Below are positions 38,001 to 61,675 of a stretch of 64,000 nucleotides of DNA, one piece after another. The first letter of the stretch is position 1. Every line of letters starts with the position of its first letter. The DNA lies in assembly GCA_035048485.1 (NCBI GenBank), contig CM068582.1, forward strand, positions 13,806,001 through 13,870,000, read 5' to 3'. This DNA comes from Pteria penguin (taxonomy: Eukaryota > Mollusca > Bivalvia > Pterioida > Pteriidae). Both the position numbers and the translations under genes were made by a program. The notes beneath the pieces were generated by a model. It was not told where the DNA came from, made no database searches, and was given only the letters and a program-made list of their open reading frames with translations.

Positions 38001-41000
38001 ATGAAGGGTCAATAGAGAAAGGCGAAAAAGCGTTACTTATTTTGCATGCAAAAACACAACGTTGCTTGTATTAACAGAGATATTGATGGACCGTGTTTTG
38101 TCCGCTGGGAACGCACGTGGGAATATAACCCATAGTTTAGCATTTTATGTTTTGTTTTATAGATAATCCATTTTGACTTCTGCTTGGTATCGTAGCACAT
38201 TACTCAAAACACTTTTGTTATTTACATTTTTCATACCTAGAGAGGTAGTACTCCACTTCACGTACGTTGTCAGAAAAACAACACTGGCATGATCAAGATG
38301 CTGCTAGATGCTCAAGCCGATGTGAATGCAGCGGACAACGTAAGTAGCTAAATATTGCGCACTTATCCCGATGCAAGTAGCTAAATATTACGTAGTTATC
38401 CCGATGTAAGTAGCTAAATATTACGTACTTATCACGATGTAAGTAGCTACATATTACGATGTAAGTAGCATATATTACGCAGTTATCCCGATGTAAGTAG
38501 CTAAATATTACGCACTTATCTCGATGTAAGTAGCTAAATATTACGCACGTGATTTTAATGTGTCCACTATAACAAATACTCTTCAGATTTGGATGTAAAA
38601 TTGACAAGAAAAAATATGGTAAAGTGATCATACAAATTTTAACTGACCATGGAACTATAAAATCGAAATTCCATGTCCACAATATTTGGAAATCATATAT
38701 TAATTCGACAGGAAGTGAAACTTACATTACGATAAAGATGGACAGTACAGTCAATCATCAATACATGTACCTCTTCAAGTCTTTGGGCTGTAAGATACAC
38801 ATGTACCTCAATTCTTTCCGTATTTTTTTTTTTCATTCTTTCTGTGACTGCCGATAATATTAATTCCCATATCCTTATGTCATCATAGCAGATGTGACCG
38901 GTCTGAGATGATGCTTAGTAACACTCCCCCCCCCCCCCTTGATCCCACCTTTGTTTTAACAGGGGTCCCGTGACTGCTTCTATTATATATACTGTCATGT
39001 TAATTGGACTTTGGGTTGTGTAAATCGGTATCTCAGATTTTTACTTGACCCATCAGTCTAGATAAGCATTCTGATTCCAATAGATAAAGTAAAACGAAAT
39101 AATAATCTAATATTAGAAGCAGTTTAGCCCACAGGATTTTCTGTCTAAAAATGTGATAAATTAATTTCTCATTATCTTGCTATATTCGTTTAATAAATGC
39201 TATCTATTTTGTTTCAACGAATCAAGCTATCAGCGTATTTTTCGTTGGGAAAATGGATTATTAACGAACCACCGATTGCAAATATAATAATATAAATAAA
39301 ACAAAGCCATTCATATTAGAAATTAAATACAATAGTGTCCTGATTATACTTTACTGGGGCTACAATACATCTCTTAACATTTTGTCTTTAGTTCATTTAT
39401 ATTTGCTATGTTGTACAACTACGTACAATGTTACCACAGTGCCAATATTATTGATACTACAGACCAAGACAGATGAAATTCAAATTCAACATAAAAATGT
39501 TGAGAAAGATAAGTCATATATTCTTCTCAAATTAACAGACTAATAACACCAGTAATATTATTTCACTAACGTATAATAGTATTGGTTAGCCACACCAACT
39601 ATGTGAGCTGATTACTTGAATTGACCGTCCTAAGACAGTATCGTAACTGCGGTACAATCGATTTTTTAAATGTGGTTTGTCTGTGTTTATGTGACTATCA
39701 TCTTGTTTTGTGTCCAACATTTGTAAGAATCATATAGATTTCTGGAGAAATATCGGAGGCACAGGTCGTGTATTTGAAATTCGGTGAAACTCAGATTATG
39801 ATAAAAATTGATTAGTTTTTACGAGTGAAGAATGCTCACTATTATGTTTTATTACATAGGATGATTGGACACCACTTCACGTAGCAGTTAAACATAATCA
39901 TCTTGATGTTATAAAGCTACTTTTGGACATAAAAGCGGATGTAAATGCAAAGAACAAGGTAAGAAGTAGCAGATTCAATTTTGTCAAAGCAATCCTTTTC
40001 CCTTTTACTCATATGTGCTTTACTTCACTGAAATTTAGATTTATATAGATCTCTCATTTATCTTTGAAATTCATTCTTATCAAGTGTAAATATATCATTG
40101 AGATATACCGATGTGTCACTGAGCATCTCCTGAGGTCAATGCATGAGTAATGCGATGATCTTTCCTGATAAACTGCTCATGCATATCTTCCATTAGATAG
40201 TGTATAGTTTAATATAATTCATAGAAGGTCCAACATATGTAGGAATTTAAAAAATATTAGGATCCTTTGGAATCCCAATACTTTGATGATCCTTACTTTG
40301 CACATAAAATAATCTCCATTAGAAAGTGGATAAAAAGACAATTACTAGAAGGTCCAACACGTGTACATGTAGGAATAAAAAAGATTGCTGGAGAAATACC
40401 CAGAGCTCTTTAAAATACAGATGTGTGTCTTTGATTTCTTTTGAAAACTCAGAGTATGGAAAACAATAGCTTAGTCTTAATAAGTCTTAGTCTTACTATT
40501 TTCACAATTGTGATTGCTGCATAGTATTATTGGGCAACCCTTCACGTAGCACTACAACATGATCTACCTGATGCTATAAAACCGTTTTGGGACATGAAAG
40601 CAAATGTAAATGCAAAAAACAAGCCTAGTTATATAAGCTATATTTCACTGAAATTCAGGTTTATAAATGTCACTAATTTATCTTACAATGTCATTTGTAT
40701 CCAATGCAAATATATCATTGAGAAAGCTTGGTGTGTCACTGAACATCAACAGGTCTAAGCGTTTCGCTTTTTGTGAAGATTTGGAAAACCAGGTCTACCA
40801 TTAGAGGATCGCCAAAAGTGTTCATTGGAATCCCAGCTATTTCATAAATATACCACCGTTTCAGTATTGAAGTCGATGCATGCAAGAAATGCTTCTCGCG
40901 CCATTACAAATAAGACTCGTATCACGAGATTACCTATTCATGGAAGTTCCAACATATATAGGAATCATATAGACTACTTGAGTAATATCCAGAGTTGTCT

Positions 41001-44000
41001 GAAGGTTGTATGTGTACATTAAAATCCTGTAAAATTCTGAGTATTGAACCAAAAAAATGGTGTAGTTTTCATAAAGTGTGATATTATGTTTTACTCTATA
41101 GAATGATAGTACAACTGATCGTCTTTATGTTAAAAAAGGACTCCTATTAGGAGGTCGCAACTGGAATCCAGTTCATTTGCTAATCCTCATTGATAAACTG
41201 CACATAAAATATTCTCAATCAGAAAGTGGGTAGCGTCGCATGTGACCAATGAAAAATGCTCACTAATTTGTTTTACTATATAGAATGATTGGACACCCCT
41301 TCACTTAGCAGTACAACATGATCATCCAGATGTCATAAAACTACTTTTGGACATGAAAGCGGATGTAAATGCACGGAATAAGGTTTGAAAGAAGTAGAAG
41401 AATCAATTTTGTTAAAGTATACCATCTCCATTTTAGTAACATTGCCTTATTTCACTGAAATATAAATGTCACAAATTTATCTCTCAAATTTATTTGTATG
41501 AAATGTACATATATCATTGAGATAGCTTGTTGTGTCATTGAAAATTCCCAACCGATCGTAATACTTCCTTTTGGAAGAGTTAAGTATCTCTCTAAAGAGG
41601 AGAAAAAAAGAGCTGTGCTGTAGGAGGATTGCAAATTGTATTTAGTGGAATCCCAGTCATTTTATAAATCTACGATTATGAAAGCAACTCCATGGAATAC
41701 CAATAATTTGTTGAATGTTACCCGTAAACTGTGTATAAATACTGTCCATTATAAAGTGGATAGCATTAAATAATTCACATAAAGTCGAACATTTGTAAGA
41801 ATCATAGAGGTTGATGAAAAATATCAAGGGCTCTCTGAAGTACAGATATGTATATTTGAACTGCGTCGAAATTCAGACTAAGGTAAAGAGTAGTTTAGTT
41901 TGAATAAGTGAAATATGTTCACTATTATATTTTACCATACAGAATGATTGGACACCGCTTCACGTAGCAGTTAAATATGGTCACCCTGCTGTTATAGAGC
42001 TACTTTTGGACACGACTTTGGATGTTAATGCTAAGGAAGGGGTAAGAAGAAACTGATTCAAATTTGATAAAGCAAGCCGCGCTATTTTATGTTATTTGTG
42101 CATTATTTCACTGAAATTTACGTTTATAAATCTTACTAATTTATCTTTCACAATTTTTATCAAGTGTACATATAGCCCTGAGATAGCTTGATGAACAAAA
42201 TTTTAATGTAAGAAAACTGAAGTAAATAACTAAATAACAACAAACATTCAGTTATATACACTGTACACTTTCAATACTAACACACTCGTTAATGAAAAAA
42301 ACAAATATATAAAACCATATTAATAATCATATTTCAAATCCAAATTACTATCCAGTTCAGTAAATAAAACAAAATACACACTATAGCGGCCAAAGTTCAT
42401 TGATTCCAACACTGACTTCTCTGAAGGTCTAAATTACTTTTTGCACCATAGACGTTTACCATTTTGGATATAATGTCATATTCTTTAATACTCGAAAAAT
42501 AGTAAAATAATCAGCCATTTACCTAACTTTACGTTGATACACTGGGTTTTGATATTCACAGCTATGCTCTGTTATGACATAGATGGTCTATCATACAAAC
42601 ATCATTCGTCACCTATAAATAATTGATTGATTGATTATTGTTTTACGTCACTCCACGAATATTTCACGTATTTAATAACGGCATCTGCCTGATGCATTGC
42701 ATACAAATTTAGACCTTTGCAACGGAACCACCCGAAGCAGTGAGGGATCTTTTACATGCCACGCCTACCGTGACACGGGACCTCGGTTTTTACTGTCTCA
42801 TCCCAAAAACAGAACACCGGTGTGCCCAGGGCGGGAGTCGAATCCGGGACCTCTCGATCATGAGCCGAGCACCTTATCCACCTGGCCACACCGGCTACTA
42901 ACGTACTGCAATTAATTAACCATCGTCTGGTAATAATTATACTATATGGACTTGAATACTTATTTATTATCTACAAATTTCATTCAAAATATTTAAATCT
43001 AAAAGTCGAAACAAAACCACTACTTACTGTAGATACGGTTATATTCCACAAACATGATACTATCCAGCTATTTTATCAGTCACCAATTCACTCATAATTT
43101 GTCCACACTGGTAATACAGCACAAAATTTATTCCACATGTGATCCACATAGATTTTCTCACAGGACCATATTTTCACACAGGAATATCATCTTGCGACAT
43201 ACACTTCATACGTGGATACTCTAGCTCTTTCTACAACTTCAACTTAACATAAAAGTGGATACTATTACATAGCTCATAAAAGTTCAAACATAGGTAGGAT
43301 ACATATAGAATACTGGAGAAATTTCCAGAGTTCTCTCAAGTAAAGATGTCTGTATGTAAACAAGGATGAAATCTCAGAGTATGGGAAACGAGAGCTTAGT
43401 TGAAATATTATGTTTTACTTTATAGAATGATTGGACACCCCTTCACGTAGCAGTACAACATGATCACCTTGATGTTATAAAGATACTTTTGGACATGAAA
43501 GCGGATGTAAATGCAAAGAACAAGGTGAGTAAGAAGAAACAGAGTCAACATTGTTAAAGCAAGTCTTTTTTAGTTATAAGAGCTTTATTTCACTGAAATT
43601 CAGGATTACATATTTCACAAATTTTTCTTTCAAATTCATCCTTATCGTGTGTATATATATCATTGAGATATCTTGATGTATCATTGCGCCTTCTCTTAAG
43701 ATTAAGGAGGGGGGGGGGCTACTTTAGGAGGATTGCAAAGTGTTCAATTATTTTCCAGCAGTCTGATAAATTTACAACTGTTTAGTGTTTGAAGTTGATG
43801 CATGGAATCCGTGTCATAGGTGTACGAAAACAAGTCTTCAAAATGTAAATCGTAATTACTATTCATAGAATCCCAATAATCTGTTGGATGTTTGGGAAAG
43901 GAGTCGGCCGCAGGATATGATAATATCAGTAGAGAAATAACATTAATAGGTCAACAAATAAATAACAAAGTTATCAACACTCAGTAACTTTAATGACCAC

Positions 44001-46959
44001 AACCAATATTGTTGCACAGAGTAATGATAAAGTTAAATACTTAAAATAAGATAATGAACTCACGACAATAAAGGAATCAGTAACTTAATAATTAATTATT
44101 CTTTACAATTTAGACAACAATGCAATCAGTTAATTCTAGAGTAAGGCAAATGAATAAATAGATAGATAGATAGATCCAAATAACGGGGGGATTCACTGTC
44201 TTAAGTTACCAACGTTTCAAGTGATCTTACATGGTAGCAAAAGTTGGTTTGGTAAATCTCAGCAGGTAGTGACGGCCCAGGCTTATATATGAAATGAGCC
44301 TTGTTTTATGATATGTATTAACTTAACGTAATAGCTATTTCGGTCATCAGATTAAAACTTATCCTGGATGAGGCTGATTTTAGAAGTTTTCGTTATACGG
44401 ACTGATTTAGACATAAACGATTATAGCACTTCTTATAACACACTACACCCATGTATACCATCACCTACTTCTAAATAGTAATTGATCAAGATTAAATTTA
44501 TAAATAAAGGTTTAGACCTGTTTTGATATTTCGAAATTTATTTATTTCATTTTACTTCTTTTTTTTTTTTTTTTTTTTTTATCAGAGAGTCATATCTACA
44601 GTTCGGCACTATTTCGAGAATCTTGAGCCACCCCTGAATTGCTATCAGTACAAAAATCCTATTACAAACCTTGTTTTTAATTACAGTGCAGCCACGCCTA
44701 ATCCAAATACTCTTGACTCTATTCCATCTTCCTGTTCATGCAATAAGTCTAAACTCATTTATCAGCCTGCGGGTCATATTATTACATGTGATCTTAATTG
44801 CTCTCTTATATGGAGGATTATTTATCAAATTTTTAAATATGTGTCCTTTCACTGTGCTGGTTTGGCGGTGATTGGGAAGGTTTACCACACCAATTGAGTT
44901 TGTTACTTTTATTAATCGTCTTAAGTCGGTATCTTAAATGAAGTGCAATCGAAAATTTTTGTAATGTCGTTTTCTGTGTATATTTTGATATAATCATGTT
45001 TAATGTGCATGTCCTTTGTGACTTTTGTCATACAACTTGGTCAGATGTCTATTGTTTTCTCCTTTATTGTTAATTCAATAAAGGATTAAAGTCATCTTAC
45101 CACTCTGTTAACGTCGTATCTTGGTGGAGCAAGGTTCAATTCCGGGGGGTATTTAGTAAATTAGGGGTGCATAAGATGATTATCTTCTATGTTACCGTTA
45201 ATTTGTAAATATGTTGTTATGTAATGTTAATTATAAAGTGAATTGCATTAATTGGCAGAAAGTCGAATATTTGTACGAACTATATAGGTTAGCGGAAAAG
45301 TATCCAGAGCTCTCAATTGTGTCTATTTTAACATTGTTGAAACTCAGATTACGATAAACAATAGTTTACATCAAAAAAGGGAAATATTCTTAATTCTGTG
45401 TTTAAATATATAGGATGATAGGACACCCCTTCACGTAGCAGTCGATTGTAATCATCTAGATGCTGTAAAGCTACTTTTGGACATGAAAGCCGATGTAAAT
45501 GCAAAGAACATGGTGAGTAAGAAGCATCAGATTCAATTTTGTTAAAGCAAGCAGTTTCATATTTAGGTATATGTGTATTATTTCAATGAAATTCAGGATT
45601 ATAAATGTCAATAATTTATCTTTCAAATCCATTCTTTTCAAGTGTAAATACATCATTGAGATCTCTTGATGTGTCATTGAACATTTCCAACAAAATGTCG
45701 AAATGTTTTTGCGTTTTGAAGTGTGAAGTCACTCTCTTAAGATTAGGAAAATGAGATCTATTAAGGGAGGATCGCAAAAAGTGCTCATTGAAATCCCAGA
45801 TATTTCATAAATATACAACGGTTAGACTTTTGAAGTAGATGCATTAAACAGGTTTCACATCATTTTAAGAAGGGACTCCTATCACGAGATCGGATGGAAT
45901 ATCCGCTTGAATCCCAATAGTTTGATGATCCTTCCTAATATACTCCACATAATATATTCTCCATTGACAAATGGATATTATGACGTAATTCAAAGAAGTT
46001 CCTATATATATAGGAATCATATAGACTGCTGGAGAATTATCCAGAGTTATCTGAAGGACAGATGTGTATATTGAAACTCGGAGTTCAGAAAACGATTGTG
46101 TGGTTCTAAAAAGTGTAATTATATTTTACTCTATAGAATTATCGGACACCCCTTCCCTTATCAAAAGAACATGAATCAGCAGTTTCAATTTTGACCCAAC
46201 ACAGCGTTCCTTATTTGTCGTATGTGCTTTATTTCACTAAAATTCGGTTTTATAAATGCATTAATTTATCAAACTTATTGGTATGAAGTGTAAATCATAT
46301 ATACCTTGATGTGTCATTGAACATCTCTAATAGAATGAAATGTTTTTATTTTTGAAGTGTGAAATCTCCCATTTAAGATTTAGGTTAAATTAGGGGAAAA
46401 TCACTATAAGTGTTCATTGGATTCCCAGTCATTTGGTAAATCTACAATGGTTTCATTTTTAACGTCGATGTATGAATACCTTTCATACGATTACGAAAAC
46501 AATTTCGCAACCAGGAGATCGCAATAAGTGTCCATGGAATCCAAATATCCATTGAATGTTACCGTTAAATTGTATAAAGATAATGCTCAGTAGAAAGAGC
46601 AAAATATTAAGCAATTCACGGCAGGTCGAACATTGGAGGAACCATATACATGTAGATAGCTGGAAAATAGAGGTACATATGTGTGATTTGAACTCTTTTT
46701 AAAACGCGGATTATGGAAAACAATAGCCTAACCTTAATCAGTGAAATCTGTTCAGTATTTTACTCTGCTATATTTTGTATAGAATGATTGGACACCCCTT
46801 CACGAAGCAGTAGAACATAATCATCTTGATATTATAAAGCTACTTTTGGAGATGAAAGCGGATGTAAACGCAAAGGATGTGGTGAGTAAGAAACAACAGA
46901 TTTAATATTTATTAAGGAAGCCATTGGTTTTTTGTTTTGTTTTGTTTTTTGTTTTTTTT

Positions 46960-47002
<43 letters not shown>

Positions 47003-50000: not shown

Positions 50001-53000
50001 CAGTGAGGTCCATCTCTAAGAATGATGAAAAAAATAGGTCTAGTACAGGGAGATGGCAATAATTGTTCAATGGATTCCCAGGCATATCTTTCAAACGATA
50101 ATGAAAAAAAAATCTACAAGCTGGACATCGCATTTACTATCCATGGAATGCCAATAAATGTTTTAATCCTTAAACTGCACATAATATGTTAGAGAGCGCA
50201 TAGTACTACATAATTCAGAAGGTGGTGTAATATATGTAGGAATCACATAGATTACTGGAGAAATATTCAGAGCTATCTGAAAGACGGATGTTTGTATCAA
50301 ACCTTTGTTGAATATACTCAGAGTATGAAAAACGAGATTTCAGGTTTATAAAATGAAATATTATGTTTTACTTTTTAGAATGATTGGAGACCCCTTCACA
50401 TAGCAGTACACCAGAATTATTCTGAAGTTATAAAGCTACTCTTGGACAAGAAAGCGGATGTTAATGCAAAGAACAAGGTGAGAAGCAACCGTTTTCTTGT
50501 TCCTCATTCTTTGTTTGTGCTTTATTTTACTGAAATTCAGGTTTCTTAATCTTACGAATATATTTTTCAACTTCATTCGTATCTATCGATTGTATCATCG
50601 AAATTGGTTGACGCATCATTGAACATCTCCAACAGGTCATTATATTTCGCTTTTTCAAGAGTGAAAACCCTCTATCAAGATGAGGAAGAGAGGAATACGA
50701 TAGGAGGATCGCAACAAGTGTTCATGATAATCCCAGTAATTTGATAAATCTACAACTATTTCTTAACTGAAGTCGATACATCGAATTCCATTTCATATGA
50801 TTACAAAAAAGAAAGCCTGCAACTAGCAAATCACAGTGCAGCCAGTATCACTGTAACCACTGTAATTTCACGATCCTTATTGATGAATTGTACATATTTT
50901 TCTCCTATAGATTATATAATTATATGCTGAAATTCAGGTTTATGAATGTCAATAATTCATTTTTATTACGTATAAATATTTCATCGAGACAGGAATCCTA
51001 TAGATTACTTGAAAAATATCCAAAGCTAAAGACAAATGTGTGTATTTGAACAGCGTTGAAATATCACAATATGGGAAGCAGTAGTTTAATTTTAATAAGA
51101 GAAATATGCTTCTGATTATGTTTTACTATACAGGAGGATTGGACACCCCTTCACGTCGCAGTACAACATGATCATCCTGATGTTATAAAGCTACTTTTGG
51201 ACATGAAAGCGGATGTAAATGCAAAGAACAAGGTGAGTAAATCCCCCTCTTACGATTAATAAAAAGGTATCTACTATAAAGGGATCGAATAAGTATTCGA
51301 TGGAATCCCCGATATTTCATCTTTCTCTTTCATACGATTTCGGGAACAGTTCTGCTAACAGAAAATTGATATCAGTCTCCATGTTATTCCAAGAAATTGT
51401 TTATTCTTAGTGTTAAACTGTATGTAAATATTGTTCGTTAGAATGCCGATAGAATTTCATTATTCATGGAAATTTAGGAATCATATAGTGTTCTGGAAAA
51501 ATATTTTCAGCTCTCCGAACAACAAATATATGTATTTCAACTCTGTTCAAAAACCGAAATTTATGAGATAATTTATTAACTGTAACAAGTAAAATATTCT
51601 CAGTATTCTGTTTTACTAAATAGGACCATAGGTCACCCCTTCATGTAGCAGTAACACGTAATCATCCTGATGTTTTAAAGCAAATTTTGGACATGAATGC
51701 GGATGTAAATGCAACAGAAAAAGTAAGTAATAGGCAACTCATTTACTTTTGTTATAGCAAACCGCTTTATCGCACTGAAGTTCAGGTTCATAAATGTAAT
51801 ATATTTATCCTTCAAATTCATTCTTTTCTCGTATGAATTTATCATCAATTTGATTTTTTAAGTGGGAAGTCCTTCTCTAAAGATGAAGAGAAATATGTCT
51901 AGTACAGGATGATGCGATAAGTGTTCATTGGATTCCCGGTCATTTCATTCATCTTCAGCGGTTTGATTTTTCAAATCAATGCATGATATTTCTTTCATAC
52001 GATTATAAAAAAGCACAAGGCATTTAGTATCCATGGAATCCCAATAAATGTATTAGTCTAGTCAAACATTCAAACTGCACATAAATGTTCTCCGTTAGAG
52101 AGTGGATAGTGCTACATAATTCCGAAGGTGCAATATATATGTAGAAATCACATAGATTACTGGAGATATATTCAGAGCTATATGAAAGAAAGATGTGTGT
52201 ATTTAAACTCTGTTGAATACCCAGAGTATGAAAAACAATATTTCATTTTCAAAAAGTGAAATATTATGTTTTACTCTATAGAGTGATTGGACACCCCTTC
52301 ACATAGCAGTGCACCATGATTATCCTGAAGTTATAAAGCTGCTTTTGGACAAGGAAGCGGACGTTAATGCAAAGAGCAAGGTAAGATGCAGCAGGATGAG
52401 GGGTTTTTTTCCCTTTCATTCGTTGTATATGCTTTATTTCACTGAAATTCGGGTTTATTAATCTCACTAATATATTTGCCGAATTCATTCATTATCAAAT
52501 TTAAACATATCATCGAGATAGGTTGATATACCATTTAACATTTCCAACAGGTCATTATATTTCGCTTTTTCAAAGAGAAAACAAGACATCTTACAAAGCT
52601 GTATGACGCAGATCACCACGGACATGCACACAAAACATGATATTAGTAGAATATACACGGCAAAACGCCATTACAAAAATGTTCGATTGTGCTTCAGTTT
52701 CGATACCGATTTAGGACGGCCATTTGAAGTAACAAACTTCATTCAATTGGTGTGGTTAACCGATTTACGGGCGCCCACATTTCCACTCATTCACAAAAGC
52801 AGCACAATCAAAGGACACACATTAAAATTTATAAATAATCCCCTATATAGAGAACAAGGATCAACAGGTTACTCAAGAAGAGAGGTCATCAAAATTGTAT
52901 TCCATACGAAATGCTTATAGAATTATATGTTGCTATCAGAAATATGTAAGGCGACATAACATCAACATAAGTAAACCGTGTTTTTCCCTTCTGTAAGCCA

Positions 53001-56000
53001 GCTCAGATTCTTGATCAAAAAGGAGTCTCGACTAACGATCAGAGGGAATGAGGGTCAGGACCTTGTCTCCTCTGAAAAGGTTTGGACAAGGCCCGTCATA
53101 GAGTCTCTACCGCCCTGTTAGTTAGCGTGCAACGCTCAAGCAAAAGTCGAGTAATAATTTTATAACCCGCCGATATGAAATTATCGGAACCTTTGACCCT
53201 CCTGAGTTTATATACTAGTAGAAATTGGGATAGGATAATCCGTTGGGTACGAATTGTTGAAAAGTCACATATTCTGAGAATTCCAATCACTCGGCCACGA
53301 GCATCACTGCAGAGACATAAGTTGTCGAAACGCGCATGTGGTGCACAAAATGGAAAGGTATATATGTTCTATATTAATTATAACCACTAGGCCGGTGTCA
53401 CTGCTGGCGGACTGATAGTCCCCGAGGGCATCTTGAGTCTAGTTTTCAGTGCTATTGTACTGACGGTCTACGTATTAGTGCTTTTGTACTGACATGAAAT
53501 ATATACTTCAAATTTTCAGTCATCAAATTATGTAAATCACTCTAAAACTAAGGAGCATCTCCATGCATAGCTCTGTCCTTAGATAGATTCTTTGGTTCAC
53601 TTTTCGGTCATTTTAGCTTCAACAGTGCTCTTCAAATATTTATATATTCTGAGAATTCCAATCATTCGGCTACGAGCATCACTGAAGAGACATAAGATGT
53701 CGAAACGCGCATCTGGTGCACAAAATTGAAAAGTATATATGTTCTATATTAATTATAACTACTAGGCCAGTGTCACTCCTGGTGGACTGATAGTCCCGAG
53801 AGCATCATAAGTCTACTTTTCAGTACTTTTGTACTGACATGTTATACATGTATATACTTAAAATTCAGTCAACAAATTATGTAAATCATTCCTAAACTAA
53901 GGAGTATCTCCCTCATGCATAACTCTGTCCTTAAATTGATTATTTGGTTCACTTTTCGGTCATTTTAGTTTCAACACTGCTCTTCAAATATTTATATATA
54001 ATCTGAGAATTCCAATCAATCGGCCATGAGCATCACTGAAGAGACATAAGTCGTCGATTTTAGTTCTATAATTATTATAACTACTAGGTCGGCGTCACTG
54101 CTGGTGGACTGATATTCCCCGAGGGCATCATAAGTCTAGTTTCCAGTGCTCTTGTACTGACGGTCCACTTTTCAGTATTTTTGCACTGACATGTAATATA
54201 CATTAATACTTTAAAAGTAAGGAGTATCTTCCTCATCCAAGGCCTGTCCTTAGATTGATTCTTTGGTTCATTTTTCGGTCATTTTAGTTTCACTTTGCTC
54301 ATCAAATATTTATATATTCTGAAAATTCAAATTCGGCCTCGAGCATCACTGAAGAGATATAAGTTGTCCAAATGGCATCTGGTGCACAAAATTGAAGGTA
54401 TATAAGTCCTATAGTAGATAAAATGTCTAAATAAGATCTCTAAAATTTACCAAACGTATGAGTTTATGATAATTATAACGCTGAGTAATAAGTTTAGAAG
54501 TAATCTGGGATTTTTTGGGTTTTTTTTTTTTTTTTTGTTTGTTTTTGGAAATTCCAAAACATTAGTGCAGGCTCTAGCGAACAGAACCAAATGACTAATA
54601 TAAATACCATATGATGGGAGTCTGGGGAAATCACCATTTAGATACGGGAAATTTACAATAGGACATCCGAAATGGTTACGTTTATCATATACATGTATGT
54701 TGGTATGAATATTGTTTTTATTAAAAGTCCAAAAAAGGTGTTTTCCTGTCGAAAGTATTGAATTTGTTTAATTGAAATTCAGATGGATAAATGTCATTAG
54801 TACAGTTTTCAAACTTAGGGTTATCGATAACTAAAATATCATCGAGATATCTAGAGGTGCCATTGAACTTATCAAGTTTAAAGGTTTGAATAAAATGCAC
54901 AAAGTCCCTTTCATAACAGTATAAAAATAAATCCGCTATAAGGGTAGCGCAGTTAGTGCCAGTAGGAATCCCAGTAATCTGTTGATAAGTCTTGCCACTG
55001 AATTGTACATAAATATTATCCATCAAAATGTGATGGCATTACACAACTCAGAACAAGTCCATTATTTATAATCATCATATTGTTGAGAAACATCCATATG
55101 TAACTGACGTACAGAGGTATGATTTCGACTCTCTGTTGAAATACCGGCGTATGAGGGACAACAATTTGGTTTTGATTACATGTACATGTAAGACATGAGG
55201 TAGAGAGGTATATAATGTCGAAAAATCAAAAGTAGAAACGTTTTTGCCTCAAAATTTTTCAAACGCAATTTTTCAATGACTTCGTTAGAATTATTGATAG
55301 ACCAAAAGTAATTGAGGTTACTGTTGCTAAAAACAGCATTGCAATACTTGATATCATGGTCTTCAGCTGCAGTAAGAGCGGAGGTAATATGTTTAGAAAG
55401 CACAGTTGTAGATCAATGACTAGAATTGATATAAAACGTGATTTATATGGATGTTCGTGTAATTTGAAAAGCCAATACATTGGAAGATCGTTTTTCTCAA
55501 TGCCTAAATTGAATTCACACATAGCTTTACAATGGTCAGATAAGATCTTGTCTTTAAAGAATGGAGTTTCAACATACGTAGAAGTAGAGTTTAATTCAGT
55601 TTTAAGAACTTTAATATAGTATATTTTTCAAACAATGATAATATTATTAGCTGCTTTGTCAGCAGGTAGGACTCTTTTTTATAAACTGGACTAGTATATA
55701 GAGTGGTTGTTTAAATAAATGGGGATTAATTGTTAATTCGAACATCGATAATTTTAACGATTCACGTTTCCGGTCATTCAAGGCATGTATTTTTACACCA
55801 TCTTTTTACCCCATCAATTGTTTAATGTTTCTTCAACAATATCCCAGCATTTGGAAAAATCTATCCTAGAAGGTAATCTATAATTAAGTCCCTTATTAAA
55901 AAGTAGACGTAGATATTTGTCAAGAGTGAAACCCTCTTTCACAAAGAGGATAAAGAGGTATACGATAGGAGGATCGCAACAAGTGTACATTAGAATCACA

Positions 56001-59000
56001 GTAATTTGATACATCAACAACTATTTCTTGTTTGACGCCGATGCATGAAATTCCGTTTCATATGACTACAAAAAGGAAGTCCGCAAGTAGGACATCGCAG
56101 TCAGTATCCATGGAACCACAGTAATTTCACGATAAATTACTGACATATTGTACATACGGGTTTTTTCCTTTATATAGTGGACAGTATTACATAATGAATC
56201 GCTGAAATTTAGGTTTATAAATGTCACTTATTTATCTTTCAAACTCATTTTTATCACATAAATATCTGATCGAGATAGGTTTTCTATAGATTGCTAGATT
56301 AATATGAAAAGCTACCTGAAAGAGAGATGTGTGTATTTGAACAGCGTTGAAATTTCACTATATGGGAACTTCTGCTTATGTTTACTATATAGGAAGATTG
56401 GACACCCCTTCACATCGCAGTACAGTATGACCATCCAGATGTTATAAAACTACTTTTGGACATGAAAGCTGATGTATATGCAAGGGAAAGGGTGAGTAAA
56501 TCCCTCTCTTACAATTAATAAAATATATCTACTATAAAGGGATCGAATAAGTGTTCGACAGAATCCCTGACATTTGAAATGTCTACAACGCGTTCAGTTT
56601 TGAAGTCGATGCATGAAATCCCTTTCACACGATTTCGGGAACAATTCTGCCAACAAGACATCGACATTAGTATCCATATTATCCCACAAAATTGTTTATT
56701 CTTAGTGTCAAACTTTATATAAATATTTTTCCGTTAGAATGTGGATAGAATTCCATTATTCACAGAAATTTAGGAATCATAGAGAGTGCTGGAAGAATAT
56801 CCTCAGCCCACCGAAAACCAGATGTATGTATTTCAACTCTGTTCAAAACTCGGAATTTATGAGATAATTGTTTAACTGTAATAAGTGAAATATTACCAGT
56901 TTTCTCTTTTACTAAATAGGATCATAGGACACCCCTTCATGTAGCAGTAACACGTAATCATCCTGATGTTTTAAAGCTAATTTTGGACATGAATGCGGAT
57001 GTAAATGCAACGGAAAAAGTAAGTACGAGGCAACTCATTCACTTTTGTTATAGCAAACCGCTTTATCTCACTGAAGTTCAGGTTTATATATGTAATTTAT
57101 TTATCTTTCAAATTCATTCTTATCACGTATGAATTTATCATCGATTTGATTTTTAAAGAGGGAAGTCCTTCTCTAAAGATGTAGAAAAATAAGGATAGTA
57201 CAGGAGGATGGCAATAAGTGTTCAATGATTTTTCATTTGATAAATTTTATTTTTCAAATCGATGCATTATATAACTTACAAACGATAATGAAAATGAAAA
57301 AAAATCTCTGAGCAGGATATCGCATTAGTATCCGTGGAATGTTTTAATCAAACATTAAATTGCATATAAATATTCTCCATCTGAAGGATAGATGTGTATA
57401 CTGAAACTCGCAGAATGGAAACAATAGTGTAGTTCTAAAAAGAGAAATATTATGTTTTACTATACAGAATAATTGGACACCCCTTCATGTAGCAGTACAA
57501 CAAGATCATCCTGATGTTATAAAGCTACTTTTGGATATGAAAGCGGATGTAAATGCAAAGAACACAGTGAGTAGAAAGCAGCATTTCTTTTTTCATCCGA
57601 GCAGACCGTTTTCTTATTGTATAGCTCCATGCTGACTTCTGCCACATAACTGAGCCAGTAACTCCTCTTTTTCTTTTGTACGTGGTTTATTTCACTGAAA
57701 TTCAGGTTTAGTAATCTCACGTGTCTCTCAAATTCATTCTTATCAAGTGTAAATGTAATATTGAGATAGGTTGATGTGCCATTGGACATCTCCAATAGGT
57801 TATAGTGTTTCGCTTTTTCAAGAGAGAAACCGCTCTATTAAGCTGAGGTAAAAAGAGGTCTGCGATAGGAGGATCGCAATAAGTGTTCATTGGATACCAA
57901 ATCATTTGATATATCATCAGCGGTGTTATTTTTCAAGTCGATGCATAAAATCTCTTTTTATAAGATTACAAACATAATAAATCAAGGAGATCGCATGAAC
58001 TACCCATAGAATCCAAATTGTTTTAATCATGCTGGTTAACTGCACATAATTTTCCATTAGAAAGTAGATATCATTACATAATTCATAGAAGGTACAACAT
58101 ATGTAGTAATCTTAAAAATTGCTGGAATAATATGAAAAGCTATCTGAAAAACATATGTGTGTATTTGAAATCTCATGATATGGGAGAAATATAGTAATTT
58201 TGATTTAATAGGAGAATTATACTTTAGATTGTGTTTTACTATATAGAATGATTGGACACCCCTTCATATAGCAGTACAACATGACCATCCTGATATTATA
58301 AAGTTACTTTTAGACATGAAAGCGGATGTAAATGCAAAGGAAAAGGTGAGTAAACTCCCATCTTACGATTAATAAGTATAGTGGGATCGCATAAGCGTTC
58401 ATGGGACCTTTGATAAAACTAGAAGGCTTTTATTTTTGAAGTTTATGCATGAACTCCCTTTCATACGATTTTGGGAATAAATCTGCAATCAGGAGATCGC
58501 AGTTAGCATCCATGGAATCATAAGAATATGTTGATTCCTAGCGTTAAACTGTATATAGATATTGTCAGTTAGAGCGTGGATAGAATTACATAATTCACAG
58601 AAAGTCCTACATTTCTGGGAATGATATAGTTTGCTGGAAAATATCCTCAGCTCTCTGAAGAACAGATGCATTTAATTTACCTCCGTTCAAAACTCGGAGT
58701 ATGTTAGATAATGGTTTATTTTTAATAAGTGGAAAATTCTGTTGTGCTATATAGAATGATTTGACACCCCTTCACGTCGCAGTAGAATATAATCATCCTG
58801 ATGTTGTAAAGTTAATTTTGGACAAGAAAGCGGATGTAAATGCAACGGCAAAGGTAAGTAAAAAGCAACTGATTCAATTCTTTTATAGCAAACTTTTCCC
58901 TTTTAATTCAAATGTCCATTACCTCACTGAAATTCAGGTTTATAAATGGCACTAATTTTCTTTCAAATCCATTCTACTCAATTAGAAACATAATATCGAA

Positions 59001-60231
59001 ATAAGCTGATGAAGATCTCTCTAACAGGTTATTATATTTCGCGAATTCAAAGTCTACGATATGGGCATCGCAAGAAGCGTTCATTGCAATTCCAGTTACT
59101 TGATACATTTTCATTGGGTGGTTTTTTTTTTTCTCAAGTCGATGCATGAAATCCCTTTTATATGAAAAGACAAAAAAAAAAAAGATAAAAGGGAAAAAAA
59201 ACTCAGCGAAAATGAGATCGCATTAATTATTCATCCAAACATTTAAAAACAATGTTAACTGCATATAAAATTCTACATTGGTTGGAAAGTTGTTAGAATT
59301 ACATAATTCACAGCATCACATATCTAGGAATCCTATAGATTGCTGGAAAAATATGAAAAGCTACCTGATATATCGATGTCAGTATTTGAACTCCGTTGAA
59401 ATCTCAGAGTATGGGAAACAATAGCTTAATTTAATTAGAGATATATGCTTCTTACTATGTTTTACTATATAGGATGGTTGGACACCCCTTCACTTAGCAG
59501 TACAACATGACAATCCTAATATTATAAAACTACTTTTGGACATGAAACCGGATGTAAATGCAAAGGGAAAGGTGAGTAAGAAGCAATTATCAAATTTTGT
59601 TTCCGCAATCCATTTCCTTTTGAGGTATATTTGCTTATAAAATGACACTAATTTATCTTTCCAATTCAATCTTATCAAGTGTAAATATATATTGGAGATA
59701 GGTTGATATGTCATTGGACATCTACAACAGGTCGGAATGGAATCCCCGTCGTAAGGTTAATAACAGGAAATATAGTATATGGTGATGACATAAGTGTTCA
59801 TGGGAATACCAGCCATTTTAATAAATCTACAACATTTTCGAAGTCAATCCATTAAATCCCTTTCACAAATAGGGAAACAAGACCGCAATGAAGCCGATGT
59901 ATAAAATCCCTTTCACGATTAGGGAAACAAATCTGCAAGCAGGAGACTAGTATCCGTGGAATCTCAAGAATTTTTTCATTCCCAGCGACAATTTGCTAAA
60001 AGAATATTCTGAGCTCTCTGAAGAACAGATGTGCTGAAATCAACCCGTTTTTTTTTCCATTGGAATATGTCAGAAAATACTTTAATAGTGTTAGTAAGTG
60101 AAATATTCTCAGTATTGTGTTTCACTTAATAGGATGATGGGACACCTCTTCATGTAGCAGTAACACGTACTCATCCCGATGTTATAAAGCTTATTATGGA
60201 TATGGAAGCGGATGCAAATGCAAAGGACAAG
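23677..60231 (+). CDS. Large ankyrin-repeat gene (exons listed separately)
   Basis: A spliced gene with a 35-codon N-terminal cap exon (24216) and 22 intact exons of exactly 99 bp, all phase 0 at both ends, each coding one 33-residue ankyrin repeat with TPLH at positions 4-7 and KADVNA at 25-30. Counting exon 23677, about 800 residues are visible, with no transmembrane segment or partner domain. Ankyrin repeats bind protein partners; the specific role is unknown. Most repeats have Lys (sometimes Gln, Asn, Glu or Thr) where the family usually has Gly in GADVNA. From 39.8 kb the introns derive from antisense PLE sequence. The start, any upstream exons and the C-terminal exon are not identified. 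One exon (40525) has no donor. Confidence 0.8.
24048..24179 (+). repeat. Direct duplication, copy 2 (upstream of exon 24216)
   Basis: Second copy of 23533-23669, again directly before an exon's acceptor tract. The unit length is about 515 bp. Confidence 0.9.
24216..24320 (+). CDS. Ankyrin gene, N-terminal cap exon
   Basis: Starts at ATG after the acceptor TTTCTTTCTTTTTAG and ends at the donor TTT|GTGAGT. The 35 codons begin MASLELFEAIIRDDV and continue KDVKKLLKTG, a usual N-terminal half-repeat: helix A, helix B and the loop before the first full repeat. Phase 0 at the 3' end fits all 99-bp exons downstream. Confidence 0.75.
24611..24626 (+). repeat. Transposon terminal inverted repeat, inner left
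   Basis: CTGGAGATAAACAAAC, exact inverse of 32578-32593. Confidence 0.75.
25354..25702 (-). repeat. Repeat R1, 5' half, near-identical inverse of 13.9 kb copy
   Basis: The reverse complement matches about 350 bp from 13865 with only a few differences seen by eye, including GTGTGGTTAACCGGTTTACG and the segment ATGGAGCTATACAATACATG. It was inserted in the left arm of the DNA transposon. Confidence 0.9.
25715..25775 (+). repeat. Repeat R3, right part
   Basis: TGGTACATTGTTGTTAGTGC, CATAGTCATGTGA and TTTCGTATTTTGCAT, repeated at 26057-26115. Confidence 0.75.
25945..26115 (+). repeat. Repeat R3
   Basis: CATTCGCGGCGGGTGTGGCT, GGCCAAACAGGGGACG, TTCAGGGGTCCGTGAATG and the TACATTGTTGTTAGTGCCAT end. 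Best preserved of the three copies. Confidence 0.75.
26201..26305 (+). pseudogene. THAP-domain C-terminal half (transposase 5' exon)
   Basis: After an acceptor-like CATTTTTAG, one frame reads SDRICSSHFKD, TGA, then MKQNGPTIFPWNEGKAFNF. RICSSHF supplies the C-x2-H ligands of a THAP zinc finger, and PTIFPW is the usual end of the domain. The N-terminal CxxC part is not identified. It lies 600 bp upstream of the transposase core, as expected for THAP-DDE transposases. Confidence 0.6.
26898..27772 (+). pseudogene. DDE transposase (DDE_Tnp_4 type) with one frameshift
   Basis: The exon starts after the acceptor TTTGTTGTAG. The first frame (213 codons to 27539) has the helical lead-in TRRDQLFMTLMKLKF, then CLVIDGTE (catalytic Asp near residue 117), SYKNRHTVKSVTGVAPN and ILADKGF (Asp near 193). 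It ends at PPF plus TAA. The next frame carries on directly with KNKGQYTPAKVQ and IHVERVNERIKNFEI, which has the catalytic Glu (codon near 27611), to the TAA at 27772. A missing T in the run near 27533 explains the break; otherwise the protein looks complete, so the shift may be a recent mutation or a sequence error. Confidence 0.85.
29343..29603 (-). pseudogene. YqaJ catalytic exon
   Basis: Reads VWLHES, TGA, ILGASPDGI (metal-binding Asp of the SPDG box), then in another frame EILEIKCRFSARHLTIQEAI (the ExK pair Glu and Lys). The active-site residues survive while the frame does not. A TAG lies at the 3' junction. Confidence 0.8.
31625..31722 (-). pseudogene. SWIM zinc-finger exon
   Basis: CDCVNGQDKCHHKACLLLY has the CxCx5CxH spacing of a SWIM finger. 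This exon has no internal stop. Acceptor TTTTCAG; donor ATATAG|GTAAT. Confidence 0.8.
32578..32593 (-). repeat. Transposon terminal inverted repeat, inner right
   Basis: Inverse of 24611-24626. Confidence 0.75.
32651..33716. other. Intron, no other feature seen
   Basis: AT-rich with T runs at 32941-32977, ending in a TTTTTTTATGCAAG acceptor at 33716. Confidence 0.5.
33717..33815 (+). CDS. Ankyrin exon 1 (33 aa)
   Basis: Acceptor GCAAG, donor AGA|GTAAGT. Starts DYNSPLHVAILYER and ends KADVNAKGR. Diverged from the later repeats; its flanking intron is not PLE-like by eye, so it may be an older part of the gene. Confidence 0.8.
34581..35477. mobile_element. TA-flanked foldback MITE (element F2)
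   Basis: Inverted termini TACAGATGGGTGCAGTCCTA and TACAGTGAGGTGCAGTCCTA, both running into ACATAAC, with TA at each edge. GC-rich arms contain many GTTAACGCG and CACGTTAACG palindromic repeats and a tandem CAGTCAAGCGCGTCAACG block at 35290-35345. The centre is AT-rich with a (TTA)n tract. Its terminus is shared with element F1 at 11.7 kb but its interior is unrelated. It lies in an intron of the ankyrin gene. Confidence 0.8.
34985..35051 (+). repeat. (TTA)n microsatellite
   Basis: About 22 TTA units inside element F2. Confidence 0.95.
35505..35660 (+). mobile_element. tRNA-derived SINE, degraded
   Basis: AAGGTGCTCGTCTCTTAACAG and a B-box-like GAGTTCGACTTCC, then the central domain ACACCACGGTGTCTTTCATATG and TAAAAACTGGGGTCCCGTAA, parallel to 7770-7850. 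The tail is lost. Confidence 0.6.
35661..36676. other. Intron, no other feature seen
   Basis: AT-rich; reading frames only short. Confidence 0.45.
36677..36775 (+). CDS. Ankyrin exon 2 (33 aa)
   Basis: Acceptor CGTTTTTAG, donor GAA|GTAAGT. WGQSPLHASCYQRNT and LLLDTQADINAMDE. Gln stands where most repeats have Lys before ADxNA. As diverged as exon 1. Confidence 0.75.
36776..38240. other. Intron, no other feature seen
   Basis: A GT/G run at 37098-37127 is the only simple repeat. Confidence 0.45.
38241..38339 (+). CDS. Ankyrin exon 3 (33 aa)
   Basis: Acceptor CATACCTAG, donor AAC|GTAAGT. RGSTPLHVRCQKNNTG and LLDAQADVNAADN. The donor begins a minisatellite that repeats it. Confidence 0.8.
38340..38550 (+). 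repeat. Minisatellite of 33-34 bp containing the splice donor
   Basis: Six to seven units of GTAAGTAGCTAAATATTACG plus CACTTATCCCGAT, the first being the real donor of exon 3. Two units are shortened and one begins GCAAGT. Confidence 0.9.
38551..39574. other. Intron, no other feature seen
   Basis: Contains a C run near 38928-38938. No exon is supported. Confidence 0.45.
39575..39665 (-). repeat. Repeat R1 fragment
   Basis: GGTTAGCCACACCAACT, then TTGACCGTCCTAAGACAGTATCG and GTACAATCGATTTTT, parallel in reverse to 13975-14050. Confidence 0.6.
39860..39958 (+). CDS. Ankyrin exon 4 (33 aa), first of the homogeneous array
   Basis: Acceptor TTACATAG, donor AAG|GTAAGA. DDWTPLHVAVKHNHLD and IKLLLDIKADVNAKNK. 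From here on the exons are close copies of one another. Confidence 0.85.
40525..40623 (+). pseudogene. Ankyrin exon copy without splice donor
   Basis: An open 33-codon frame YYWATLHVALQHDLPD to ANVNAKNK after the acceptor CTGCATAG, but the bases after AAG are CCTAGT, so there is no donor. TPLH has become ATLH and LLL has become PFW. Most likely skipped in the mRNA. Confidence 0.75.
41101..41130 (+). pseudogene. Ankyrin exon relic
   Basis: CTATAG then AATGATAGTACAACTGATCG, after which intron sequence follows: the middle and end of the exon are deleted. Confidence 0.65.
41284..41382 (+). CDS. Ankyrin exon 5 (33 aa)
   Basis: Acceptor TATATAG; the donor AAG|GTTTGA is weaker than its neighbours. 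NDWTPLHLAVQHDHPD and LLLDMKADVNARNK. Confidence 0.8.
41943..42041 (+). CDS. Ankyrin exon 6 (33 aa)
   Basis: Acceptor CATACAG, donor GGG|GTAAGA. NDWTPLHVAVKYGHPAV has the classical GH pair of ankyrin helix 2. It ends TTLDVNAKEG, so Lys25-Ala26 are changed. Confidence 0.85.
42632..42900 (-). mobile_element. tRNA-derived SINE, full length, reverse
   Basis: Same family as 7723-7996 read backwards: TTGATTGATTGATTATTG tail, TTTTACGTCACTCCACG, GAAGCAGTGAGGGATCTTTT, GACACGGGACCTCGGTTTT and a tRNA-like head with GGGAGTCGAATCCGGGACCT and GAGCCGAGCACC. It lies in a lengthened ankyrin intron. Confidence 0.9.
43426..43524 (+). CDS. Ankyrin exon 7 (33 aa)
   Basis: Acceptor TTTATAG, donor AAG|GTGAGT. NDWTPLHVAVQHDHLD and KILLDMKADVNAKNK. 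Confidence 0.85.
43895..45190. mobile_element. Insertion of about 1.3 kb in a PLE-derived intron
   Basis: Intron consensus stops after CCCAATAATCTGTTGGATG and resumes near TTACCGTTAATTTGTAAATA. Between them lie AT-rich unknown sequence, a T run (44556-44580) and an inverted R1 copy. A B-box-like GGTTCAATTCC at 45150 hints at a SINE fragment. Confidence 0.5.
44805..45070 (-). repeat. Repeat R1, 5' half
   Basis: ATGGAGGATTATTTATCAAA, then GATTGGGAAGG, TTACCACACCAATTGAG, AAGTCGGTATCTTAAATG and GTCATACAACTTGGTCAG. Confidence 0.7.
45414..45512 (+). CDS. Ankyrin exon 8 (33 aa)
   Basis: Acceptor ATATATAG, donor ATG|GTGAGT. DDRTPLHVAVDCNHLDAV and LLLDMKADVNAKNM. Trp3 is replaced by Arg. Confidence 0.85.
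46137..46162 (+). pseudogene. Ankyrin exon relic
   Basis: CTATAG then AATTATCGGACACCCCTTCC, broken off after the TPLP-like codons; the following sequence is intron. Confidence 0.65.
46783..46881 (+). CDS. Ankyrin exon 9 (33 aa)
   Basis: Acceptor TTGTATAG, donor GTG|GTGAGT. NDWTPLHEAVEHNHLDII and LLLEMKADVNAKDV. Confidence 0.85.
46927..47085 (+). repeat. Long T/G homopolymer tract
   Basis: T runs broken by single G bases, inside an ankyrin intron. It may mark an old poly-A tail read in antisense, or be assembly noise. Confidence 0.85.
47415..48508. mobile_element. Insertion of about 1.1 kb starting with a perfect hairpin
   Basis: It begins at a 22-bp perfect palindrome (GCAAACCCCG plus its inverse, 47415-47436). 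Intron consensus runs up to CCCAATAACTTGAT and resumes at TGATCTTTACTGATAAGCTG. Near 48200 a GCCTCGACGGGGAGTTTG motif echoes the palindrome. No protein is recognised; it is probably a non-autonomous DNA element. Confidence 0.5.
48723..48821 (+). CDS. Ankyrin exon 10 (33 aa)
   Basis: Acceptor ATATAG, donor GAG|GTGCGT (slightly unusual). NEWTPLHVAVQHDHPD and NLLLDKKADVNEKDE; Glu replaces Ala30. Confidence 0.8.
49756..49854 (+). CDS. Ankyrin exon 11 (33 aa)
   Basis: Acceptor AACATAG, donor AAA|GTGAGT. DDWTPLHVSVQHDHPD and LLLDMNAHVNAKDK. Confidence 0.85.
50379..50477 (+). CDS. Ankyrin exon 12 (33 aa), type A of the three-exon unit
   Basis: Acceptor CTTTTTAG, donor AAG|GTGAGA. NDWRPLHIAVHQNYSEV and LLLDKKADVNAKNK. 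Closest to exon 52282. Confidence 0.85.
51134..51232 (+). CDS. Ankyrin exon 13 (33 aa), type B
   Basis: Acceptor CTATACAG, donor AAG|GTGAGT. EDWTPLHVAVQHDHPD and LLLDMKADVNAKNK. Followed by a short intron (391 bp) starting GTGAGTAAATCCCCCTCTTA, shared with exon 56393. Confidence 0.85.
51624..51722 (+). CDS. Ankyrin exon 14 (33 aa), type C
   Basis: Acceptor ACTAAATAG, donor AAA|GTAAGT. DHRSPLHVAVTRNHPD, KQILDMNADVNATEK. Differs from exon 56920 at only two residues. Confidence 0.85.
52282..52380 (+). CDS. Ankyrin exon 15 (33 aa), type A
   Basis: Acceptor CTCTATAG, donor AAG|GTAAGA. SDWTPLHIAVHHDYPEV and LLLDKEADVNAKSK. Confidence 0.85.
52580..53235 (+). repeat. Repeat R1, nearly complete
   Basis: GTGTGGTTAACCGATTTACG, AATAATCCCCTATATAGAGA, AGGAGTCTCGACTAACGATC, TTGTCTCCTCTGAAAAGGTT and GACAAGGCCCGTCATAGAGT. 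It lacks the GGGGCC tail part seen at 14.45 kb. Confidence 0.75.
53240..54410 (+). repeat. Repeat R2, tandem array of about 3.3 units
   Basis: The landmark GAGCATCACTG starts at 53299, 53674, 54028 and 54341, giving spacings of 375, 354 and 313 bp. Each unit has GACATAAG, CATCTGGTGCAC-type, GGTGGACTGATAGTCC, TTTTGTACTGACATG, AAACTAAGGAGTATCT and TTTTCGGTCATTTTAG blocks. The third unit has an internal deletion and the fourth is cut off. Confidence 0.85.
54690..55620 (-). pseudogene. Penelope-like element reverse transcriptase, decayed
   Basis: Minus-strand frames, N to C: LPMYWLFKLHEHPYKSRFI (PLE block), DIKYCNAVFSNSNLNYFWSI with NSNEVIEKLRLKNFEAKTF, a frame break where FDFSTLYT is expected, then YVQFSGKTYQQITGIPTGTN and ADLFLYCYERDFV (GIPxGTNCAP-type block). 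FNGTSRYLDDILVIDNPKFE (motif C YLDD) and IYPSEFQLNKFNT follow. At least two frameshifts. No GIY-YIG endonuclease part is seen. This copy identifies the origin of the surrounding introns. Confidence 0.85.
55814..55918 (-). pseudogene. PLE N-terminal region fragment
   Basis: LLFNKGLNYRLPSRIDFSKC then WDIVEETLNN resembles the region ahead of the RT in PLE proteins (LxxGLxFxxP motif). It lies at the 5' edge of the insertion, where its frame runs on into unrelated intron. Confidence 0.65.
56393..56491 (+). CDS. Ankyrin exon 16 (33 aa), type B
   Basis: Acceptor CTATATAG, donor AGG|GTGAGT. EDWTPLHIAVQYDHPD, LLLDMKADVYARER; Asn29 is replaced by Tyr. Confidence 0.85.
56920..57018 (+). CDS. Ankyrin exon 17 (33 aa), type C
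   Basis: Acceptor ACTAAATAG, donor AAA|GTAAGT. DHRTPLHVAVTRNHPD, KLILDMNADVNATEK. Confidence 0.85.
57468..57566 (+). CDS. Ankyrin exon 18 (33 aa), type A position
   Basis: Acceptor CTATACAG, donor ACA|GTGAGT. NNWTPLHVAVQQDHPD, LLLDMKADVNAKNT. The intron after it holds a small R1 end fragment. Confidence 0.85.
57615..57680 (-). repeat. Repeat R1 end fragment
   Basis: TTGTATAGCTCCATGCTGAC and ACATAACTGAGCCAGTAACT, the outer end of R1 only. Confidence 0.7.
58247..58345 (+). CDS. Ankyrin exon 19 (33 aa), type B
   Basis: Acceptor ACTATATAG, donor AAG|GTGAGT. NDWTPLHIAVQHDHPDII, LLLDMKADVNAKEK. Followed by a short type-B intron (409 bp). Confidence 0.85.
58755..58853 (+). CDS. Ankyrin exon 20 (33 aa), type C
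   Basis: Acceptor CTATATAG, donor AAG|GTAAGT. NDLTPLHVAVEYNHPDVV, KLILDKKADVNATAK; it shares LIL and NAT with the other C exons. Confidence 0.85.
59473..59571 (+). CDS. Ankyrin exon 21 (33 aa), type B
   Basis: Acceptor ACTATATAG, donor AAG|GTGAGT. DGWTPLHLAVQHDNPNII, LLLDMKPDVNAKGK; DG at positions 1-2 is the family-typical turn. Confidence 0.85.
60133..60231 (+). CDS. Ankyrin exon 22 (33 aa), type C, last intact
   Basis: Acceptor CTTAATAG, donor AAG|GTGAGT. DDGTPLHVAVTRTHPD, KLIMDMEADANAKDK. The good donor implies a further exon downstream, which I could not identify. Confidence 0.85.
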
Positions 60232-60351
60232 GTGAGTAAGAGGCAACCAATAAATTTTATTAAAGGAGTCCGTATCTTATTTGTACTAGCGGAAAAAGAA
60301 AAACTGTGTATACTTAAAAAAAAAAAAAAACATCAGGGGCAAAATTGATTG

Positions 60352-61618: not shown

Positions 61619-61675
61619 AAGAAGCAGTAGATTCAATGTTGTCAAACAGGCTGTTTCCTTATTGGTTATCTATCT

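Follow-up and report, generated by a model that had tools for sequence, protein, structure and literature searches.

Antisense Penelope-like reverse transcriptase sequence in the introns of a tandem ankyrin-exon array of Pteria penguin

We analysed a stretch of 64,000 nucleotides (the window, C3:13806001-13870000) of the 838-Mb genome of Pteria penguin, which comprises 49 contigs. The window has a G+C content of 33% and harbors an array of ankyrin exons. The introns of this array share one ancestor and carry antisense sequence of a reverse transcriptase (RT) of the type found in Penelope-like elements (PLEs). All positions are those of the window.

Exons E1 to E20 occupy 39860-60231 on the plus strand. 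Each is 99 bp long, in phase 0, stop-free and encodes one ankyrin repeat, in agreement with an earlier reading of the letters without database searches (the sequence-only reading), which had proposed about 20 such exons. An AG acceptor was present at 20/20 exons and a GT donor at 19/20. E2 has a CC donor and is probably spliced abnormally. Seven joined repeats matched the Pfam families Ank_2 (E 4.2e-98) and Ank (E 1.4e-72) above cut-off. The mean pairwise identity of the exons was 81%, with a mean nonsynonymous divergence (dN) of 0.196 and a mean synonymous divergence (dS) of 0.344. In a neutral simulation of 2,000 runs with substitutions only, on average 11.6 and at most 19 of 20 exons remained stop-free, compared with 20/20 observed. 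Thus the exons are kept open, while the repeats nonetheless diverge in sequence.

The place of the array as first proposed, 39860..60231, was right for E1 to E20, but the array is not confined to it. Upstream of E1 the plus strand carries three more ankyrin exons of 99 bp, i.e. the starter exon E-2 (33717..33815) and two exons of an older type, E-1 (36677..36775) and E0 (38241..38339). Beyond E20, a decayed tail of PLE-RT units on the minus strand (60232..62982) with an exon remnant at 61556-61610 extends to about 63 kb; an intact exon follows at 65111, just outside the window. Relatives of the array are located on chromosome C11 (see below).

Within the array exons and introns alternate, the exons on the plus and the PLE-RT sequence on the minus strand. 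The left edge of a PLE-bearing unit (consensus 481-641, listed on the plus strand) precedes E1 at 39712..39859. E1 (39860..39958) is followed by I1 (39959..40524), E2 (40525..40623) by I2 (40624..41283), E3 (41284..41382) by I3 (41383..41942) and E4 (41943..42041) by I4 (42042..43425), in which the unit ends, 42041-42193 and 43239-43425, enclose a later insertion. This insertion contains a tRNA-like match (42823-42895, minus strand, 30.1 bits) and is perhaps a tRNA-derived short interspersed nuclear element. E5 (43426..43524) precedes I5 (43525..45413), a unit with a later insertion, of which a sense-strand piece (44613-44837) matches the N-terminal part of the protein P0027. E6 (45414..45512) precedes I6 (45513..46782), where two units (45513-46136 and 46172-46772) flank a truncated plus-strand exon remnant (46141..46174). 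Then follow E7 (46783..46881), I7 with a T-rich insertion (46882..48722), E8 (48723..48821), I8 (48822..49755), E9 (49756..49854), I9 (49855..50378), which was recognized by its profile only, E10 (50379..50477), I10 (50478..51133), E11 (51134..51232) and I11 (51233..51623).

The second half of the array starts with E12 (51624..51722), which is 96% identical to E15, and I12 (51723..52281). E13 (52282..52380) is followed by I13 (52381..56392), a unit interrupted by a nested PLE. E14 (56393..56491), I14 (56492..56919), E15 (56920..57018), I15 (57019..57467) and E16 (57468..57566) lead to I16 (57567..58246), into which a dispersed repeat of high copy number is inserted at about 57615-57681. Dozens of listed matches to this short repeat, spread over many contigs, were 88-98% identical. 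The array continues with E17 (58247..58345), I17 (58346..58754), E18 (58755..58853), I18 (58854..59472), E19 (59473..59571) and I19 (59572..60132), again a profile-only unit, and closes with E20 (60133..60231).

The introns shared a common unit with a mean pairwise identity of 67%, which confirmed their descent from one ancestor. A consensus of 641 nt was built from 15 units. In antisense it matched PLE-type RT proteins with E values down to 2.7e-32, the best of seven proteins tried. Two fragments were distinguished: fragment A corresponds to RT residues 212-296 of the PLE protein P0002, and fragment B, which contains a frame change, to residues 157-247. Because the GIPMG region is present in both, the intron unit is chimeric, composed of two RT fragments that overlap. 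A first interpretation of the consensus block at about 245-300 as the PLE N-terminus was ruled out, since the alignment identified it as the second copy of the GIPMG region. The protein alignments span consensus 41-289 and 301-569. One C11 intron extended the PLE-like part to its own position 37 at the 5' side and DNA alignments extended it to 604 at the 3' side, so that some 36-40 nt at either end are not PLE-like. Around each exon the order is the same, B before and A after.

The antisense origin was also examined intron by intron with the independent PLE proteins P0002 and P0038 at E<1e-3. Among I1 to I19 10/19 matched in antisense and none in sense, the best being I3 with E 1.2e-15. The window is AT-rich, and a chance or low-complexity likeness to RT might be suspected in such introns. 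Yet, 0/1,140 dinucleotide-shuffled introns and 0/5 control stretches, including introns of the older exons, matched the PLE proteins, while all matches of the genuine introns were on one strand. These results ruled out chance similarity, the probability of which we regard as practically nil; the resemblance goes beyond low complexity and the introns are of antisense PLE-RT origin, as had been proposed. In blastn at E<0.01, 15/20 introns matched the PLE part of 54590-55915 at the DNA level. The introns of E-2, E-1 and E0 did not match the PLE copy at this threshold, and a PLE match at the protein level was absent from the introns of E-2 and E-1 and from the left part of the E0 intron.

The PLE copy within I13 had been noticed before as an RT at 54.7-55.2 kb. 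A real PLE-type copy is present there, but it is longer: its pieces span about 52.9-55.9 kb, with a 352-bp tandem repeat separating them. The nested sequence as a whole (52581..55915, minus strand) consists of a C-terminal part (52916-53218) and the RT (54392-55841). The unit of I13 resembles I10 (79% identity); its left part extends to 52580 and its right part begins at 55915, and the two joints carry short stretches of similar sequence. Because the 54.7-kb PLE interrupts an I10-like unit, we take it as a later insertion and not as the ancestor of the introns.

This RT is not merely another decayed intron unit. It had 2,606 protein relatives with a best E of 4.9e-131, and a search of the genome with P0002 gave 42,795 first-look candidates, with 88/88 scored matches at full or nearly full length and 73-74% identity. 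It is thus a member of a huge dispersed genomic family. Relatives of P0002 were absent from the genome-contig and viral-contig collections. A Pfam scan of the RT pieces yielded no match, RVT_1 reached only E 0.09 with P0002, and a PDB sequence search found no RT among its matches. The structure model of P0002 was poor (predicted local distance difference test score, pLDDT, of 53), and its eight best PDB matches were telomerase RTs at E 0.05-0.5. The label 'PLE-type' for the source element is based on RT motifs and on this weak structural hint. No Pfam match to a GIY-YIG endonuclease was found in L028 ORF1 (open reading frame 1), P0001, P0002, P0003, P0019, P0024 and P0027. Thus we did not file the source element as canonical Penelope/Poseidon, which bars the canonical group only; endonuclease-deficient PLEs are described (PMC3846280).

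The 352-bp tandem repeat in the nested PLE (53366-54216) had a match resembling a type I hammerhead on the plus strand and is perhaps a retrozyme-like repeat. The Hammerhead_1 score in the repeats of I13 was 26.7 bits, below the cut-off of 34, and six 3.5-kb PLE copies contained no hammerhead at gathering score. Related sequence adjoins a PLE copy at C11 10.99 Mb.

A family of this abundance, fresh copies of which do land in array introns, could in principle have supplied every intron by a separate insertion without any common captured unit. However, introns on two chromosomes agree in the A-then-B structure, in the overlap of the RT fragments and in their ends. The shared chimeric structure ruled out separate insertions as the main process, and we consider them highly improbable as an explanation of the array.

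Exon and intron have spread as a pair, as the sequence-only reading had supposed. Over units 2-19 the double-centred identities of the exons co-varied with those of the intron before (r 0.57) and of the intron after (r 0.46; p 0.0002 each). Furthermore, blocks of three units recur in both. A three-unit period was detected in units 9-18 at lag 3 for the introns (p 0.0001) and for the exons (p 0.011), and I11, I14 and I17 were all matched only from consensus 208 on, i.e. they share a 5' deletion. Equal-length phase-0 exons, splice sites and co-duplicating introns of common ancestry are the features of tandem exon duplication. Vertebrate ankyrin genes likewise have 99-bp ankyrin exons with one repeat per exon and tandem exon duplication. 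The array resembles such systems in its one-repeat exons, its symmetric phase and the mutual ancestry of its introns, and differs from them in that the shared intron body is antisense RT and that the cassette is present at nine loci on two chromosomes. Among the best 120 of 7,987 scored candidates for ankyrin homologues identity was 40% or less and no orthologous array was found.

The loci outside the window were identified by genome-wide searches, in which the best 40 of 149 candidates were scored for the exon query and the best 40 of 88 for the intron query. All 40 scored exon candidates were on C3 or C11. The intron query led to 52 places, all in the C3 array or on C11. On C11 we examined 160 kb, a part of the chromosome, with exon and intron-unit profiles trained on the window. 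Eight places yielded 73 exon hits; with 22 in the window, where the profile missed E-1 and E0 and included one remnant, this amounts to 95, of which 86 are intact. A gap was defined as the stretch between adjacent exon hits and was counted as carrying A or B if at least 60 nt were present. Of 86 gaps at the nine loci including the window, 63 carried both A and B and 69 at least one. Thus loci on two chromosomes have a common ancestry and one chimeric structure. In the intron tree rows mostly grouped by locus with low support of the deep nodes; the C3 rows did not form one group, and rows from C11 10.99-11.37 Mb fell among them. Because a single PLE copy served as its root, the tree is no test of whether the introns belong to a single group. 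Within the limits of these searches the data support a restriction of the chimeric unit to the ankyrin family.

The starter exon E-2 had eight genome copies (8/8 scored), one on C3 and seven on C11. The array at C11 11.37 Mb (L011, L012, L018) comprised 20 exon hits and two main intron forms of 462-464 and 877-926 nt. Eight introns of about 463 nt had a mean identity of 97.7%, eight of 877-926 nt a mean of 89.5% with a minimum of 73.6%, and the exons 93%. We take these near-identical units as a sign of recent expansion.

A further scenario is mobilization by the PLE, in which an exon caught between two PLE copies would have spread as retroelement cargo. PLEs are known to be arranged in partial tandems and to be capable of carrying host genes with introns (PMC3846280). 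The order B-exon-A would fit an exon flanked by directly oriented pieces of two PLE copies. However, the units in the arrays examined are head-to-tail inside genes, three outlying places of the intron query each had decayed ankyrin exons beside them, and the PLE pieces are internal RT fragments instead of terminal repeats. Mobilization of the Penelope type is therefore very unlikely in our view. In the bdelloid rotifer Adineta vaga, Penelope-mediated expansion of intron-containing host gene families involved a whole gene between terminal repeats with a target-site duplication (PMC3846280). Both cases tie PLE sequence to the growth of an intron-containing gene family, yet in P. penguin internal RT fragments reside in introns and growth is in tandem.

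The array at C11 15.2 Mb (L008, L009, L020) served as a natural control on whether the PLE matters for growth. There, 10/17 gaps were introns of 102-158 nt without a PLE body, yet the array had multiplied. The shared consensus 41-103 of these introns (84%) aligns with about PLE residues 275-296, and we therefore regard them as deletion forms. Compared with the PLE directly, the short-intron consensus gave a weak E of 0.065. The opposite order, in which the short introns represent the state before capture, retains a small likelihood. The sequence-only reading had seen the PLE as the carrier; that it was a necessary carrier is unproven.

The control bears on a stronger version of events, in which the PLE was the driver: pieces flanking one exon would have provided the first long homology for unequal crossing-over in an exon that otherwise would have stayed single. 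Of the exon types in the window, the PLE-flanked one alone was amplified, while E-2, E-1 and E0 occur once each, and the mere eight genome copies of E-2 point in the same direction. B before and A after each exon is what two flanking PLE pieces would give. On the other hand, all this is one lineage, and so the association amounts to n=1. The C11 15.2-Mb array grew although most of its introns are without blocks A and B, unit sequence follows the starter exon at three C11 loci as well, and any captured intron would give the same picture. Taken together, a driving role of the PLE is possible but rather unlikely. The corresponding claim that the first duplications used the PLE pieces as their substrate, and that a family at no fewer than nine loci thus owes the onset of its growth to a dead RT gene, is equally doubtful. 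If the PLE pieces did supply the starting homology, the array would clearly exemplify how a retroelement fragment can seed the growth of a repeat protein; if they did not, a comparison of arrays that have the PLE body with arrays that lack it is still possible within one animal.

We favor, with a probability of about 0.8, a single capture of an antisense RT fragment by an ankyrin gene with one exon per repeat, followed by tandem co-duplication of exon and intron, the PLE most likely being a passenger. The ancestral gene would already have consisted of 99-bp phase-0 one-repeat exons of the type of E-2 to E0. The order of exon unit first and PLE later is preferred since the window's older exons show this same form without PLE. 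A fragment of a PLE-type RT would then have been taken up once, in antisense, into the intron adjoining one exon. Thereafter exon and intron would have duplicated in tandem, singly and as three-unit blocks, presumably by unequal crossing-over. Whole genes would have been copied too, giving rise to the arrays elsewhere on C11, one of which expanded recently. The introns would decay freely while the exons stay open, and later fresh PLE copies, including the one at 54.7 kb, would have inserted in some introns. As a passenger within the repeat unit the PLE piece may lengthen the shared stretch for misalignment, but would have been unneeded once arrays existed.

Several results weigh against this scenario or narrow its basis. 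The exon also co-varied with a non-adjacent intron (offset +1, r 0.29, p 0.009), although more weakly than with adjacent ones, as block duplication would give. The double-centred p-values come from the second of two test forms tried; in an uncentred Mantel test the matching intron offsets were without signal (-1, p 0.23; 0, p 0.57), and an isolated p of 0.01 at offset -2 was taken as noise. A direct protein match was absent for 9/19 introns and a blastn match to the PLE copy at E<0.01 for I4, I7, I9, I11 and I19; introns with neither DNA nor protein match are tied in via the shared profile only, and because the profiles were trained on the window, profile matches within it are not independent. 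The genome searches scored the best candidates only, and places of the intron query on C11 near e.g. 10.97, 11.03, 11.27 and 11.31 Mb were left unread. Unit hits more than 1.5 kb from a same-strand exon or on an exon-less strand numbered 6/173, one of them being the 54.7-kb PLE itself. At three C11 loci, unlike the window, the gap after the starter exon contained PLE unit sequence. Finally, the median dN/dS of the exons was not low (0.58), and that they are joined by splicing is predicted from the splice sites and the open exons.

Mobile-element pieces in introns are possible recombination partners in repeat-mediated exon duplication, e.g. between Alu elements. The present arrays are alike in this respect, except that here the element is inside the repeated unit and common to most units. 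Introner-type mobile introns also comprise many introns of one ancestry, as we find here. Since the places of the intron query, with the best 40 of 88 candidates scored, were only in the C3 array or on C11, there was no sign of introner-like insertion at many unrelated sites. A literature search by titles and abstracts found no described retroelement-derived intron within an ankyrin cassette. Growth by exon duplication is common in repeat proteins, though the start of their arrays is rarely visible. The foreign marker in the intron makes capture, block duplications, gene spread and marker loss legible in one genome.

Besides its bearing on the introns, the PLE family itself displayed a peculiarity. 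In 14/14 copies examined (L026-L039) an in-frame TGA followed the motif PADKAGNNII.V, and one further C11 copy had a TGA at the same site. The decayed PLE of I13, which is 68% DNA-identical to the C11 copy, has an in-frame TGA after PADKAANNIIIV. A second in-frame TGA at NKANT.DKST, where most homologues have Ser, was present in 4/6 copies printed (L027, L028, L030, L031). Among the 88 scored genomic matches of P0002, 86 had at least one in-frame TGA in the matched part, and a TAA or TAG occurred there in 2/88.

Homologues were compared at the first TGA site at the protein level, where the codon in other genomes is not seen. Among 120 P0002 homologues listed, 32 included that part and had either Cys (17) or Trp (15) at the site; a further 16 started just past it. 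For the upstream ORF, 57 of the 120 relatives listed extended to its end; 41/57 stopped within 3 residues of the site (43-74% identity) and the remaining 16 read through with Trp (14) or Cys (2).

The Rfam family SECIS_1 was matched at the ORF end at gathering score in 5/6 and 7/8 PLE copies and overlapped the terminal TGA. The PLE copies share ancestry, and hence the counts of TGA and SECIS are not independent. SECIS_1 also matched a window fragment at 14319-14382 with 36.6 bits and I13 with 33.6 bits, just under the cut-off of 35. The sites of the TGA and SECIS observations in the window are 55666, 53131, 53044-53107 and 14319-14382, all on the minus strand. Judged from these sequence features, we favor selenocysteine decoding of the TGA, which would make the PLE a candidate selenocysteine-containing RT; plain readthrough and a two-ORF layout are rival explanations. 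Among the titles and abstracts listed by a literature search, none reported a selenoprotein RT in a PLE. The candidate is possibly more striking than the ankyrin cassette.

The rest of the window includes a secretin-family seven-transmembrane receptor reading frame (Pfam 7tm_2) at 3-1211, a zf-RVT retroelement fragment just below cut-off at 5308-6018 and a DDE_Tnp_4 transposase fragment at 26898-27536, all on the plus strand.

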